Assembly (NCBI GenBank): GCA_900319035.1
Contig: ONMU01000007.1
Location: 1 to 50,956, forward strand
DNA: 50,956 bases
From: an uncultured Bacteroidales bacterium
GTDB taxonomy: Bacteria > Bacteroidota > Bacteroidia > Bacteroidales > Paludibacteraceae
Direction: 5' to 3'
Position 1 is the stretch's first letter. Each line of letters starts with the position of its first letter. Positions 13,299-37,447 of the stretch are shown here, one piece after another. A program made the translations under genes and the position numbers. The notes beneath the pieces are model-generated. The model searched no databases and was not told the origin of the DNA. It was given only the letters and a program-made list of their open reading frames with translations.

Positions 13299-13318
13299 AT
13301 CAGCCAAACTTGGCTGAT
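13299..13318. repeat. Palindrome ATCAGCCAA-AC-TTGGCTGAT
   Basis: Perfect 9-bp arms with a 2-nt loop, the same architecture as the REP palindromes that follow at 13361. It lies 10 nt after the stop codon of the secreted protein gene. Confidence 0.75.
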
Positions 13319-13328
13319 ATATACTAAG

Positions 13329-13360
13329 AAAATGGCTCGCAGATGCGAGCCATTTTCTTT
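13329..13360 (+). terminator. Terminator of the secreted protein gene
   Basis: AAAATGGCTCGC, a 4-nt AGAT loop and GCGAGCCATTTT form a 12-bp perfect stem followed by CTTT. A strong factor-independent terminator, possibly serving genes on both sides. Confidence 0.8.
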
Positions 13361-13715
13361 ATCGTGCATCAATGCACGATGCAGAGAGGGAGTGCATGAT
13401 AAACCCAAGGAGGGTGTGGAACTTGCGCTGCTTGGTCCATTGACGGAGGTAGCGGTCGCGGAGAGAGGGAGTGGCGAGGATATATTGCGCTTGGCGGCGG
13501 AGTTGGACAAAGTTCTTCTGTGCTCGTTGTTGAGCAGGAGAGGGGGAGGATGATCGTGCATCCATGCACGATGCGGGGGAGGAAGAGGAGGAAGAAGCGA
13601 GCGTGCGGGTGGAGACACGTTCGGTTTGACGGCGTGTGACGAAGACGAGGTCGGATTGACGGTTCAGTTTGCCAGAGAGGGTCTTGAGGGGACTATTCAA
13701 AGAGACTTGACTCAT
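13359..13715 (-). CDS. Small hypothetical protein, paralogue of its neighbour, interrupted by REP sequence
   Basis: This 118-residue product has an N-terminus (NSPLKTLSGKLNRQSDLVFV) that aligns with that of the gene at 13838-14239 (FNDPVEIIRGKLNKRQKDIY). The C-terminal QRKFHTLLGFIMHSL aligns with that protein's YGNFRAFVRTAIFFQL. The middle differs: it has a serine-rich stretch and the peptide SCMDAR from a REP palindrome at 13553-13572. The last residues (SCIDAR) are encoded by a second REP at 13361-13380. I read it as a shorter, REP-invaded paralogue. Function unknown; it may be degenerate. Confidence 0.6.
   Translation of the reverse strand: MSQVSLNSPLKTLSGKLNRQSDLVFVTRRQTERVSTRTLASSSSSSPASCMDARSSSPSPAQQRAQKNFVQLRRQAQYILATPSLRDRYLRQWTKQRKFHTLLGFIMHSLSASCIDAR
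13361..13380. repeat. REP palindrome copy 1
   Basis: ATCGTGCAT-CA-ATGCACGAT: 9-bp arms and a 2-nt loop. It forms the last codons of the 118-residue gene (frame SCIDAR). Confidence 0.9.
13553..13572. repeat. REP palindrome copy 2
   Basis: ATCGTGCAT-CC-ATGCACGAT, in frame inside the 118-residue gene (frame SCMDAR). It uses a different open frame from the copies inside the transposase gene. Confidence 0.9.
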
Positions 13716-13751
13716 GGTTGGTGGTGTTTAAGAAAAAAACATGGATAAACG

Positions 13752-13826
13752 ATGGTCTGGCGACCATTGTCGGATAGCATCCGACCTAATGAACATAGAG
13801 TTTTTAGTCAACAATTGTCGACAATT
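13752..13826. repeat. Three adjacent palindromes between the paralogous genes
   Basis: ATGGTC-TGGC-GACCAT (13752-13767), GTCGGAT-AGC-ATCCGAC (13769-13785) and the 14-bp self-complementary AATTGTCGACAATT (13813-13826) occupy the gap between the two paralogues. They could end transcription of the upstream gene or be sites for the island's transposase. Confidence 0.65.
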
Positions 13827-13837
13827 AAAGACAAGTT

Positions 13838-14239
13838 TTATTGTTGATATTTGAGTTGGAAGAAGATGGCGGTTCGGACGAAGGCGCGGAAGTTACCATA
13901 ACGTTTGGGTGGTTTGGTGGGATCGAGCGCCTCGGGTTTGGAGAGCTGGGCATCAAACCGTTTGACCCAAAGGGGGCGTTCGGGTGCGTCGGGAAGGAGT
14001 TGGAGCGTAGCCATCTGGCAGGCTTGTTTGAACATGTCCTGGTGGGCTTTCTCGTTCGGGGTCACCGGCGTGAGATCGTAGTCACGGGGATGGTTGATGC
14101 GATAGACCTCTTGAGGTCCTTGCATGACGACAGCTCCCGTCGGCGAGCGGAAGGATTTGATGCGATAGATGTCTTTCTGACGTTTGTTGAGTTTGCCCCG
14201 GATAATTTCTACGGGGTCGTTAAATTCTGCTTTAGCCAT
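13838..14239 (-). CDS. Small hypothetical protein, paralogue of the 118-residue neighbour
   Basis: This 133-residue cytoplasmic protein has no signal peptide or membrane segment. It contains GKLNKRQKDIYRIKSF, then a GAVVMQGPQEVYRI block, and ends in a basic-aromatic region, RYGNFRAFVRTAIFFQLKYQ. The first and last parts match the protein encoded just downstream (13359-13715), so the two arose by tandem duplication. They lie directly downstream of the RAYT gene on the same strand, so they may be passengers or partners of it. I do not recognise a function. Confidence 0.7.
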   Translation of the reverse strand: MAKAEFNDPVEIIRGKLNKRQKDIYRIKSFRSPTGAVVMQGPQEVYRINHPRDYDLTPVTPNEKAHQDMFKQACQMATLQLLPDAPERPLWVKRFDAQLSKPEALDPTKPPKRYGNFRAFVRTAIFFQLKYQQ

Positions 14240-14278
14240 ATTGTGAAGGTAGTTGTTTGATATTGCAATAACTTATAA

Positions 14279-14311
14279 ATAGCCTATGAATAGCCTATGA
14301 ATAACCTAAGA
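14279..14311. repeat. 11-bp tandem repeat
   Basis: Three units (ATAGCCTATGA twice, then ATAACCTAAGA) lie in the 195-nt gap between the RAYT gene and the small paralogue. Nothing else is evident in this gap. Confidence 0.8.
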
Positions 14312-14434
14312 GAAGACGCTATTTGGGTTTACTTACATCCGTGTTTGAACTGTTGGGTGGAGAGGAAGTGGAGGAGGGCGTCATATGAAACGAGAGTTGG
14401 AATTAGACGAAATGGCGGAGGGTATCATATAATA

Positions 14435-15541
14435 TTATCTTTGGCAGATCATCCTTGCTATTTCATTGAGGGCAAGGAAGCGATAGCGGTCACTTTCAAT
14501 AGGGGCTATGGGGGATTTGCGATGAACGACCTTTTCTATATCTTCTCTTTCGAAGACATCTATTTTGGGTTCCAGTAATAACAAGCGTCCTTGCGAGCAT
14601 GCCTCGAAGAGCATGCCGCCCGGTTTATAGTACTTTATATGCGGATCCTCGGGTTTTGGAAAACCACCTTTTAGCAGAATAATTAGCGGAAGTTTCTGCT
14701 CTCTAATCGTGCGACAGATGATTTGTTCACCTTTTGAGATAGCTGCGCTGAGGGAGACGAAGCCGTTTTGGGCTTTGGTGAGGAGATCGTGCATTAGTGC
14801 ACGATACTCGGTATTGTGATTTCCGTTAGTGAGACTTCTGGAGCATTGGATGACCTGTTTTTGGGGAGCGTCCAAGAGATCCCTATTTCCCATAGCCCTA
14901 AACCATAATGGCCCGTTTGTGGTGGGGATAGTGAGATTTTGCATTAATGCAAAATACGAGGGGTGTTTGCGCATTTCGGCTAAGCGTCGCGGGTTATCAT
15001 GTATATAGGCGCGAAGCGTTTCCAGACGCTGTTTACTATAAGCAATACGGTCATTGTAGTTGGGCTCCCAAAGAGAGGACGAGGCTATCTGTTTGCGCTG
15101 CTCTATGGTTAGACTCGCCTTGCCGGGTAAGACCGAAGGGAGGGGCGTTTGATCGTGCATTAATGCACGATGCAGGGATGTGCAGCGCATTTTGTATTGG
15201 CGGATGATTTGACCGATCGGTTTGTCAAGATGGGCGGTTACGCGTAATAAACCATGTAAGTGATCCGGCATCAGTTGAAAATCCAGCGTTTTGATTTGCG
15301 GAACATGGGAAGGTATAGCGTTCCATTCTTGTGAGATGAGGTTTCCCAGATCAGAGGGGTGAATAGTGGCAGATGTTATGTCTAAAGTCCCGAAGAGGGG
15401 TTTGCGGTTGTTGGTGGTGAGCGTGATCATATAGACGCCCCGAGATTGGTAATCGTGCATTAATGCACGATGCTGAAGAGCGAGATTTCTCTCGCTCTTC
15501 CAGTGTCCGTCCGGCGTTTTATAGTGCTTGGGGAAAGGCAT
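14435..15541 (-). CDS. REP-associated tyrosine transposase (Y1/HUH), with C-terminal extension
   Basis: This 368-residue protein is a Y1-type single-strand DNA transposase. The HUH motif is H94-L-H96 in LMPDHLHGLL. The block YIHDNP (179-184) probably carries the nucleophilic tyrosine. The N-terminal half matches RAYT proteins; residues about 200-368 form an extension with FVSLSAAISKGEQ and CSQGRLLLLEP, possibly a Rossmann-like domain (inference). Striking: REP palindromes lie in frame inside the gene, encoding RALMHD at 25-30, 125-130 and 247-252 and a decayed FALMQN at 197-202. Another REP lies 11 nt upstream of its start. The frame is intact, so it is probably functional. Confidence 0.85.
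   Translation of the reverse strand: MPFPKHYKTPDGHWKSERNLALQHRALMHDYQSRGVYMITLTTNNRKPLFGTLDITSATIHPSDLGNLISQEWNAIPSHVPQIKTLDFQLMPDHLHGLLRVTAHLDKPIGQIIRQYKMRCTSLHRALMHDQTPLPSVLPGKASLTIEQRKQIASSSLWEPNYNDRIAYSKQRLETLRAYIHDNPRRLAEMRKHPSYFALMQNLTIPTTNGPLWFRAMGNRDLLDAPQKQVIQCSRSLTNGNHNTEYRALMHDLLTKAQNGFVSLSAAISKGEQIICRTIREQKLPLIILLKGGFPKPEDPHIKYYKPGGMLFEACSQGRLLLLEPKIDVFEREDIEKVVHRKSPIAPIESDRYRFLALNEIARMICQR
14786..14805. repeat. REP palindrome copy 3 (inside RAYT gene)
   Basis: ATCGTGCAT-TA-GTGCACGAT, one mismatch between arms, in frame. It encodes residues RALMHD (247-252) on the minus strand. Confidence 0.9.
14936..14955. repeat. Decayed REP-like palindrome (inside RAYT gene)
   Basis: ATTTTGCAT-TA-ATGCAAAAT keeps the GCAT-TA-ATGC core, but both outer arms have changed together, so pairing is retained. 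It encodes FALMQN. Confidence 0.7.
15152..15171. repeat. REP palindrome copy 4 (inside RAYT gene)
   Basis: The consensus ATCGTGCATTAATGCACGAT, in frame, encoding RALMHD at residues 125-130, shortly after the HUH motif. Confidence 0.95.
15452..15471. repeat. REP palindrome copy 5 (inside RAYT gene)
   Basis: Consensus copy in frame near the N-terminus (RALMHD, residues 25-30). It is followed directly by an 11-bp stem hairpin at 15475-15500 (GAAGAGCGAGA, TTTC loop). Confidence 0.95.
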
Positions 15542-15551
15542 TTTTTTTATG

Positions 15552-15571
15552 ATCGTGCATTAATGCACGAT
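15552..15571. repeat. REP palindrome copy 6 (between GH28 and RAYT genes)
   Basis: Consensus copy 11 nt upstream of the RAYT start codon and 4 nt after the GH28 gene. With copy 1 at 13361 it brackets the island. Confidence 0.95.
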
Positions 15572-17129: not shown

Positions 17130-18668
17130 TCATGCCAAGTCGGCTATTTTGAGGGCGGCATTGATGCCATCGAGTGCCGAGGAGGTGATACCTCCTGCGT
17201 ATCCGGCTCCTTCACCGCAGGGATATAGCCCGGGTGTGGAGATGGATTGAAGGGTCTCGGGATCACGAGGGATACGCACGGCGCTGCTACTTCGGCTCTC
17301 GACACCGAGGATGACAGCATCGTTGGTGAGGAAGCCCGGATATTTCTTGTCGAAGTCGCGGAAGCCCTGTTGGAGACGTTTGCCGATATGAGGCGGCAAC
17401 CACTGGTCGAGGCGTGAGGGGACGATACCCGGCAGGTAACTGCAGGCAGGCAGATCCTTGGAGGGGCGTCCTTCTACGAAGTCGAGTAGCCGTTGCGCTG
17501 GCGCAACGGCTGACCGCTGCGCTGTAGCCCGATCTCCATCCTTAGCGTGCATGAATGCACGCTGCTCTAACTTCTCCTGGTATTCGAGTCCGCGGAGCGG
17601 ATCGTTGCCCGGGATGTCTTCGGGATTGATCTGTACGACCATGCCGGAGTTGGCGAAAGGCGAGTTGCGGTGGGAAGCCGACATGCCGTTGACGACACAG
17701 GTGTCGGGTGTGCTACCCGCCGGAACGATGTGTCCGCCCGGACACATACAGAACGAATAGACCCCGCGTCCATCGACCTGCGTGACTAACGAATAAGAGG
17801 CGTTGCCGACGTAGTCAATGAGACCGGCTTCGCTGACAGACCGCTTCGCTGACAGATGATACATCAACTGGTTAATGAGTGCTTGCGGATGTTCAGCGCG
17901 TACGCCCATAGCGAACCCTTTCGTTTCAAGCGCTACGCATTCGGCGGCTAACATCCGATACGTATCGTGCGCCGAGTGACCGATTGCTAAAATAATAGGG
18001 GTAATTCCCTTTGTACATTGTACATGGTCCCTTTGTACTTGTTTGAGACTCGTGACACAAGTCTCAAACCTGATCTCACCGCCATGAGCAATGATACATT
18101 CGCGAATGTTTTTGATGATGGTCGGCAGTTTGTCGGAACCGATATGCGCGTGCGCTTCGTAGAGGACGGTGTCGGGGGCTCCGAAGAAATGGAAGAGCTC
18201 CATGACGCGCTGCATATTTCCACGTTTTTTGGAACGGGAGAAGAGTTTACCATCGGAGAACGTACCGGCTCCACCTTCACCGAAACAGTAGTTCGACTCG
18301 GGATTCAGACCCTCGTTTCGGTTCAGCAATGCGATATCTTTTTTCCTTTCACTTACTTCCTTTCCCCTTTCGTAAATGATGGGTTTGATGCCATGTTCGA
18401 TGAGGGTGAGGGCAGCAAAGAGTCCTGCGGGACCTGCACCGATGATGACAGCCTCCCGTTTGGCATGATGTACATCTTGGAAGACAGGCGGCTCATAGAG
18501 CGGGATCGGCGCATCTTTGGCAATGGGGTTGCCTTGATCATCCGTAAGAACAGTAAGATGCACGCGCAAATCTCGCTGCCGTGCATCTACTGAACGTTTC
18601 ACTACCCGCCATTTCTGCGCCGCTTCGTGCGCTTCGCGCGGGGACAATATGTATTGCTTATTTTCCAA
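17130..18668 (-). CDS. FAD-dependent oxidoreductase (COG2509-type)
   Basis: This 512-residue protein belongs to the large family of uncharacterised FAD dehydrogenases. The N-terminal LKRSxDAR-like stretch ([13 protein letters not shown]) is followed by the dinucleotide fold G77-AGPAG-L, then [20 protein letters not shown] and a C-terminal [13 protein letters not shown] for FAD. The start is a TTG overlapping recA by 11 nt; no ATG lies near. Three places look like in-frame insertions: repeat words at about 208-222, a duplicated GCTTCGCTGACAG at 17829-17858, and two palindromes at 17488-17563. The flanking conserved motifs (QRAF, APAQRL) are intact, so the enzyme is probably active. Confidence 0.85.
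17488..17511. repeat. 11-bp-arm palindrome inside the FAD oxidoreductase gene
   Basis: AGCCGTTGCGC-TG-GCGCAACGGCT, perfect arms with a 2-nt loop, in frame (part of SAVAPAQRL). It has the same architecture as the REP copies, with different sequence. Confidence 0.8.
17544..17563. repeat. REP palindrome copy 7 (inside FAD oxidoreductase gene)
   Basis: AGCGTGCAT-GA-ATGCACGCT differs from the consensus only by compensated changes in the outer arms and by the loop. It is in frame and encodes RAFMHA at residues 370-375. It lies 2 kb from the RAYT gene. Confidence 0.85.
18007..18068. repeat. In-frame heptamer words plus inverted repeat inside FAD gene
   Basis: Units CTTTGTA, CATTGTA, CATGGTCC, CTTTGTA are followed by a 9-bp inverted repeat TTTGAGACT (18042-18050) and AGTCTCAAA (18060-18068). 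All are in frame (residues about 201-221). Confidence 0.75.
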
Positions 18669-37399: not shown

Positions 37400-37447
37400 C
37401 AAAATTACTATTTTTCTTGCATATATGCAAATTTTTTTGTACTTTTG
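37400..37447. promoter_or_regulatory. Symmetrical bidirectional promoter (marC / efp)
   Basis: The perfect palindrome TTGCATATATGCAA (37417-37430) supplies a -33 element to both strands. Minus: TTTG (37428-37431), 20 nt, TAATTTTG (37400-37407). Plus: TTG (37417-37419), 20 nt, TACTTTTG (37440-37447). Nearly the same 48 bp recur at 40450-40497. Confidence 0.85.

Follow-up and report, generated by a model that had tools for sequence, protein, structure and literature searches.

A probable REPtron in the Bacteroidales: REP-like hairpins in frame within the coding sequence of a divergent RAYT

Repetitive extragenic palindromes (REPs) and the REP-associated tyrosine transposases (RAYTs, also called TnpAREP) that accompany them are the closest described systems for the locus reported here. 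This locus occupies positions 13361 to 15571 of the window, the 50,956-nucleotide (nt) stretch of contig ONMU01000007.1 that was analysed (uncultured Bacteroidales bacterium, Paludibacteraceae; assembly GCA_900319035.1). It holds a RAYT-like gene with near-identical 20-bp palindromes in its flanks and within its own reading frame. Statements on published systems refer throughout to the accessible portions of each source. The E. coli TnpAREP/REP pair (4er8; PMC8266576) resembles the system proposed here in its HUH-Y1 fold, in having a REP hairpin as partner and in strand discrimination by a 5' motif; it differs in its GTAG foot, imperfect stem, length of 165 residues and REPs that lie between genes. 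In subclass 2.4 of Quentin et al. 2018 (PMC6006769), which includes Bacteroidetes, REPs flank tnpAREP and also sit in frame inside it, between the HuH and Tyr motifs and without disturbing the frame, as at the present locus. The variable region of that subclass lies between strand 3 and helix C, whereas the variable loop of the window RAYT lies between helix C and strand 4. The subclass motifs NH[IFV]H, WQ and YIxNNP contrast with PDHLH, LWE and YIHDNP here, and the GT[AG]G feet with a GC foot; the C-terminal half is also longer here. The same paper describes subclasses 2.2 and 2.6 as having short insertions close to the region of REP recognition, between helix C and strand 4, and in this respect they resemble the window RAYT; the accessible text does not report these insertions as encoded by REP hairpins. 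Subclass 2.6 is mostly from Bacteroidetes and is flanked by atypical hairpins with further copies in the genome. Its motifs (NH[LIV]H/WQ/YIH[QN]NP) and mean length of 179 residues differ from those of the window RAYT (368 residues). REPs inside many other genes were described by Di Nocera et al. 2013 (PMC3733652) and, as here, are read in frame, there in genes that include tRNA synthetases and repair genes. Those REPs are insertions with GTAG/CGTC tags, whereas several copies here are equal-length replacements with a GC foot. Co-evolution of TnpAREP and REP has been described by Corneloup et al. 2021.

An earlier note on this DNA, made from the sequence alone, had put the locus forward as an undescribed system. 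That claim has to be withdrawn: since in-frame REPs in tnpAREP (PMC6006769), REPs within other genes (PMC3733652) and the co-evolution of enzyme and REP are already in print, the kind of system is known. Within a literature search that took in little subscription material and had the Quentin supplements outside its scope, nothing was found in print on this Bacteroidales RAYT family, on its GC foot, on hairpins that differ by lineage at a single homologous loop, or on replacement of coding sequence at equal length.

The reading preferred here, to which a probability of roughly 0.6 is given, is that the locus is a REPtron whose RAYT belongs to a divergent Bacteroidales family and whose substrate hairpins also lie within the RAYT coding sequence. 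The window was scanned with the pattern ATCGTGCATNNATGCACGAT, 20 bp in length, allowing up to three mismatches and taking 100 shuffles as the null. Matches at 13361, 13553, 14786 (one mismatch), 15152, 15452 and 15552 recovered all six palindromes listed in the earlier note; a seventh, at 17544, has two mismatches that are complementary. Shuffled windows held a mean of 0.05 palindromes and none of the 100 reached seven. This null and a genome-wide reversed-pattern control (below) led to rejection of a chance origin. The features, with the palindromes termed REPs, are as follows.

14435..15541, minus strand: RAYT/TnpAREP-like gene of 368 residues; open reading frame (ORF) with an HUH-Y1 domain and a C-terminal half that is DprA-like in appearance
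15552..15571, minus strand: RAYT-upstream REP, 5'-GC foot on the RAYT sense strand; also present in relatives L048-L050
15452..15471, minus strand: site 1 REP, in frame as RALMHD; coincides with the family motif RAxxHDY
15152..15171, minus strand: site 2 REP, in frame as HRALMHD; at the junction of helix C with the loop preceding strand 4
14936..14955, minus strand: site 3 variant hairpin ATTTTGCATTAATGCAAAAT, in frame as FALMQN; four mismatches, all pairs intact
14786..14805, minus strand: site 4 REP, in frame as YRALMHD; one central mismatch
13359..13715, minus strand: 118-residue ORF; no family above cut-off
13553..13572, minus strand: REP in the 118-residue ORF, in frame as SCMDAR
13361..13380, minus strand: REP at the 3' end of the 118-residue ORF, SCIDAR; adjoins a terminator-like inverted repeat
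17544..17563, minus strand: REP-like palindrome AGCGTGCATGAATGCACGCT with two complementary changes, in frame as QRAFMHA; inside an FAD-dependent enzyme gene (17130-18668)

The earlier assignments of frame are borne out. The copies at 15452, 15152 and 14786 lie in the RAYT ORF in the frame that reads RALMHD, and those at 13553 and 13361 are read in the SCxDAR frame of the 118-residue ORF, the second at its very end; the sixth (15552) lies outside genes, 10 nt before the RAYT start. Site 4 is exact in the relatives L048 and L050 and has one different mismatch in L049, and the 118-residue ORF is absent from the aligned region of all three. A further perfect stem, GAAGAGCGAGA..TCTCGCTCTTC, was observed in the RAYT coding sequence at 15475-15500, just before site 1; it too is kept in L048-L050.

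Many RAYT genes of the genus carry a hairpin at one fixed loop, a wider pattern that the earlier note had missed. RAYT homologues are found in 129 of 178 genus genomes, with up to 13 matches in a single genome. Eighty-one loci taken from the matches listed yielded 78 ORFs by motif (L114, L204 and L214 were missed); an 85% filter left 65, and 63 remained once L080 and L117, with loops too short for the rule, had been dropped. Fetched loci L103-L110 were left out of further analysis. The loop in question connects the helix after the HUH strand to the strand that comes next, and its in-frame hairpins differ greatly in sequence, encoding HRALMHD in the window and YRALMRD, NQPYMAD, YPPRLAD, GCPKDGT, DSLNDER and others elsewhere. 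A perfect loop hairpin is present in 36 of the 63 non-redundant RAYTs, against 0.61 expected from codon shuffling; the rest of the gene holds 11 against 4.4 expected. Arm thresholds of 7 and 8 return the same 36 genes and 51 palindromes. With arms of at least 9 there are 16 loop hairpins (0.17 expected), and with arms of at least 10 there are 11 (0.03 expected). The control was formed by 369 other ORFs of the fetched loci, a set that took in a few motif-missed RAYT frames and some antisense frames, and held 66 palindromes versus 52.3 expected. There is therefore no strong general bias, and a palindrome bias of the genus as a whole was rejected.

The flanks and the pairing of the arms add to this picture. 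Of the 82 internal palindromes, 20 have a similar palindrome in the flanks of their own locus, compared with a mean of 2.0% of other loci; RAYT frames were taken stop to stop for this count, and some of the 82 precede the likely start codon. At the first site anchored by a protein motif, 61 of 64 arm cells are paired (49.2 in shuffles, with 0/2000 reaching this value). The second anchored site gives 67/90 (46.9 in shuffles, 0/2000), with three of its ten sequences unpaired. Because descent alone can lift related sequences above shuffles, this covariation is support rather than proof. The presence of lineage-specific hairpins at the same spot of the RAYT suggests that enzyme and target evolve together.

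Two side observations concern hairpins of other sequence. The window carries a member of a second hairpin family, ATCAGCCANNNNTGGCTGAT, at 13299-13318. This family is present in 74 of the 178 genus genomes, with up to 36 copies per genome (control 0), and also lies within RAYT loops, where it encodes NQPYMAD. At L098 and L102, arrays of one repeated hairpin stand on both sides of the RAYT genes, about 15 copies of the TTGTCCCA..TGGGACAA types in the former and seven of TTCGCTCA..TGAGCGAA in the latter.

Concerted change is seen between the window RAYT and that of genome G008 (L081/L111), which are 54% identical in aligned segments and 52% identical in a 61-sequence alignment. In G008, two upstream copies and sites 2 and 4 are GCGCATTAATGCGC-type hairpins where the window has GTGCATTAATGCAC. 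Site 3 reads ATTTCGCATTAATGCGAAAT in G008 versus ATTTTGCATTAATGCAAAAT in the window. One stem pair (T-A/C-G) is thus altered in concert upstream and at three sites in the gene (2, 3 and 4). The G008 gene has no palindrome at site 1, and all three exact GCGC-type copies in that genome sit at its RAYT. Site 3 had been described in the earlier note as a decayed fourth copy that keeps its pairing. It is in frame and fully paired, and simple decay does not describe it: the L111 RAYT, at 52-54% identity, retains the same odd outer arms there and differs in a single inner stem pair only.

The assignment of the gene as RAYT-like is upheld by a match to the NCBIfam model REP_Tyr_transpos (NF047646; 44.7 bits, E 1.2e-11), which lies below the curated cut-off of 80, and by structural similarity. 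The Pfam model Y1_Tnp scores 21.6 bits, again below its cut-off (23), and the window RAYT is therefore a divergent family member at best. Residues H94, H96, Y179 and N183 are invariant across the 61 aligned sequences, the Asn standing four residues past the catalytic Tyr. The predicted structure (pLDDT 88.3) matched ISDra2 TnpA (2xma, E 2.4e-6) and E. coli TnpAREP (4er8, E 1.6e-4) in Foldseek searches. In this model a strand (94-101) is followed by a helix (109-127) and a further strand (158-167), with site 2 at residues 124-130. The C-terminal half looks DprA-like in the model, a likeness that is suggestive. The full model matched ShosA (8zva, E 3.3e-4), which we take to be a DprA-like protein, and DprA (4ljr, E 0.014); the C-terminal domain alone gave nothing at E <= 0.001, the best matches being ShosA (E 0.037) and DprA (E 0.17). 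No report joining TnpAREP or RAYT with DprA was found in a search covering little subscription literature.

The palindrome is dispersed through the genome, as the earlier note had anticipated; that note had named its absence elsewhere as evidence to the contrary. The 2.48-Mb genome holds 10 exact copies and 18 with at most three mismatches, and the reversed control pattern gives none. Ten of the 18 are read in frame within ORFs. The RAYT has three of them, the 118-residue ORF two, and the FAD enzyme (17544), RsmH, MurE, IleRS and GluRS have one each, the housekeeping genes concerned being rsmH, murE, ileS and gltX. Seven of these ten read RALMHD-like and three SCxDAR-like peptides. None uses the third frame, in which the TTA core reads TAA, so the claim of exclusive use of two open frames extends to the whole genome. 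The remaining eight copies are intergenic, at the ends of genes or in questionable ORFs; one of these eight, with three mismatches, may be chance. The MurE, IleRS and GluRS copies each recur in one close relative (G102, G103 and G101, respectively). Rickettsia palindromic elements are longer than the 20-bp palindrome, and we know of none inside a RAYT gene. They are alike, in the accessible accounts, in adding in-frame peptides to unrelated proteins.

Other repeats were noted in passing. The sequence TGCATNNATGCA occurs 56 times in the same genome (e.g. window positions 37418 and 50099) versus 11 for its reversed control; most of the listed places read TGCATATATGCA, a different repeated dyad. 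A second RAYT of this genome (L116, on G000:C22) carries a different loop hairpin (ATCCGCC..GGCGGAT), and its flanks hold comparable ones; hairpins similar to this type adjoin REP copies in L032 and L034. In two related genomes, an ORF judged by eye to be DAHP-synthase-like (L273, L276) contains ATCGCGCAT..ATGCGCGAT in an SCxDAR-type frame.

Relatives that lack the palindromes bear on whether these were inserted or overlaid. They had been interpreted in the earlier note as peptide inserts, with RALMHD in palindrome-free homologues named as counter-evidence; a similar peptide is indeed found at one site. At site 1, RALMHDY overlays an older RAxxHDY family motif, and palindrome-free relatives of the same length read RAKWHDY, RASGHDY and similar. 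In MurE, relatives with equal loop length read SDRAYMRN, and the loop carries other repeats in other species. All 29 aligned IleRS relatives are equal in length, mostly TDALLHV-like; relatives of the FAD enzyme have LERLAFEHG against LEQRAFMHA here, with no net insertion. Both the FAD and IleRS sites show complementary changes in both arms. Several copies have therefore taken the place of similar codons with no change in length. The nearest relatives of RsmH differ from it by two residues around the palindrome, with no clean insert, and the RAYT site 2 loop varies among relatives. The aligned stretch of L048-L050 offers no clean empty site because the 118- and 133-residue genes are missing there. 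As a separate observation, the MurE loop (L122-L151) and the RsmH loop (L284-L301) hold different palindromic or tandem-repeat peptides in different species of the genus, e.g. NGQWTMDNGQ and SPHLTSPMKGEEGK.

These comparisons bear on the strongest alternative, neutral selfish insertion, which is considered unlikely. It holds that the RAYT moves REPs randomly and that only in-frame insertions into tolerant loops survive, coding copies being harmless debris, a view of intragenic REPs proposed by Di Nocera (PMC3733652) and Quentin (PMC6006769). The exclusive use of open frames is as expected under such a process, as is the variability of RAYT site 2 and of the MurE and RsmH loops, where relatives carry other palindromic or tandem-repeat peptides. 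It accounts poorly, however, for the absence of any net gain in length in MurE, IleRS, the FAD enzyme and the RAYT at site 1, or for one loop being struck in 36 of 63 RAYTs with little excess in other ORFs. Nor would it readily explain why, at 52-54% identity, sites 3 and 4 retain hairpins in which the same pair has changed in concert.

The 5' foot of the hairpin was analysed across four genomes, in 31 distinct copies that had no more than one mismatch; these copies are not independent. A 5'-GC is present at exactly one foot in 22 of the 31 and at both feet in none, and in the window's own genome 12 of 13 copies have a one-sided 5'-GC foot. The foot of all six window copies lies on the RAYT sense strand (five GC and one GT). 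A GT[AG]G or CGTC foot occurs in one of the 31 copies only. The one-sided foot indicates that the unit is directional, as in known REPs, but the tag differs. This asymmetry is unexpected for a symmetric operator and argues against a second, improbable alternative, in which a dimeric regulator or the RAYT binds a double-stranded site or an RNA hairpin, controlling the RAYT and some housekeeping genes. Such an element would suit the 20-bp dyad form, the copy 10 nt upstream of the RAYT start, the several copies in the RAYT transcript and the sense orientation of all window copies, but most other copies lie within coding sequence or downstream of genes. More improbable still is quasi-palindrome correction, in which replication template switching perfects imperfect inverted repeats with no part for the RAYT: an in-place origin at several sites and the complementary arm changes in the FAD and IleRS genes would fit, but the near-expected count in other ORFs does not, and neither the one 20-mer shared by unrelated genes nor the recurring foot dinucleotide is explained.

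Several findings weigh against the REPtron interpretation itself. No loop hairpin is present in 27 of the 63 genus RAYTs, and for 62 of the 82 internal palindromes the fetched flanks hold no similar one. Outside the genus, where 22 loci were asked, a loop hairpin was found in only three of 15 readable RAYTs, and in none of six Prevotella/Hallella records. Among the four closest genes, the conservation of hairpin bases does not significantly exceed that of other bases (2/80 variable versus 62/1024 elsewhere). About 10-18 copies per genome are few for a REP. Six of 101 genomes besides the window's own hold one or two exact copies, their best RAYT match being distant or not among the matches listed, and the GCGC type occurs in six genomes besides G008; the link between REP type and RAYT type is therefore loose.

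If the locus is a REPtron, its operation may be outlined as follows. (i) The REP would be a 22-nt unit, comprising a 5'-GC foot and a perfect 20-nt palindrome, and would be read as a hairpin in single-stranded DNA. (ii) The RAYT probably cleaves and rejoins this hairpin DNA, as is known for TnpAREP. (iii) REP copies lie upstream and downstream of the RAYT gene, at some dozen further places in the genome and, which is unusual, in frame at four sites within the gene itself. (iv) Replacement of coding sequence that was already similar appears to be no rarer than insertion. (v) In this genus a hairpin of the cognate type tends to occupy the helix C/strand 4 loop, with a sequence that differs by lineage, so that enzyme, flanking REPs and internal REPs would change together. 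The occurrence, frames and positions of the palindromes, the pairing and covariation of their arms, the concerted change and the foot are observed; binding and cleavage of the hairpin, its mechanism of spread and any benefit are what we infer from these sequences. A more far-reaching version is speculative and rather doubtful. The RAYT gene would carry its own recognized hairpin at a fixed loop by the presumed REP-recognition region, with substrate and enzyme inherited and changed as a unit. Short-patch conversion would then carry a change of specificity from the internal hairpins to REPs in the flanks and elsewhere in the genome, overwriting similar coding sequence in other genes rather than inserting into it.

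This locus bears on the origin of REPs, on the means by which they keep pace with their transposase and on the manner of their spread. The hairpins at this one homologous position of the coding sequence, which differ by lineage and have natural replacements across many species, provide ready enzyme/substrate pairs for tests of co-evolution. If copies overwrite codons without change of length, REPs would spread by something nearer conversion than insertion, a process of which the short palindromes in ileS, murE and other essential genes would be a record.

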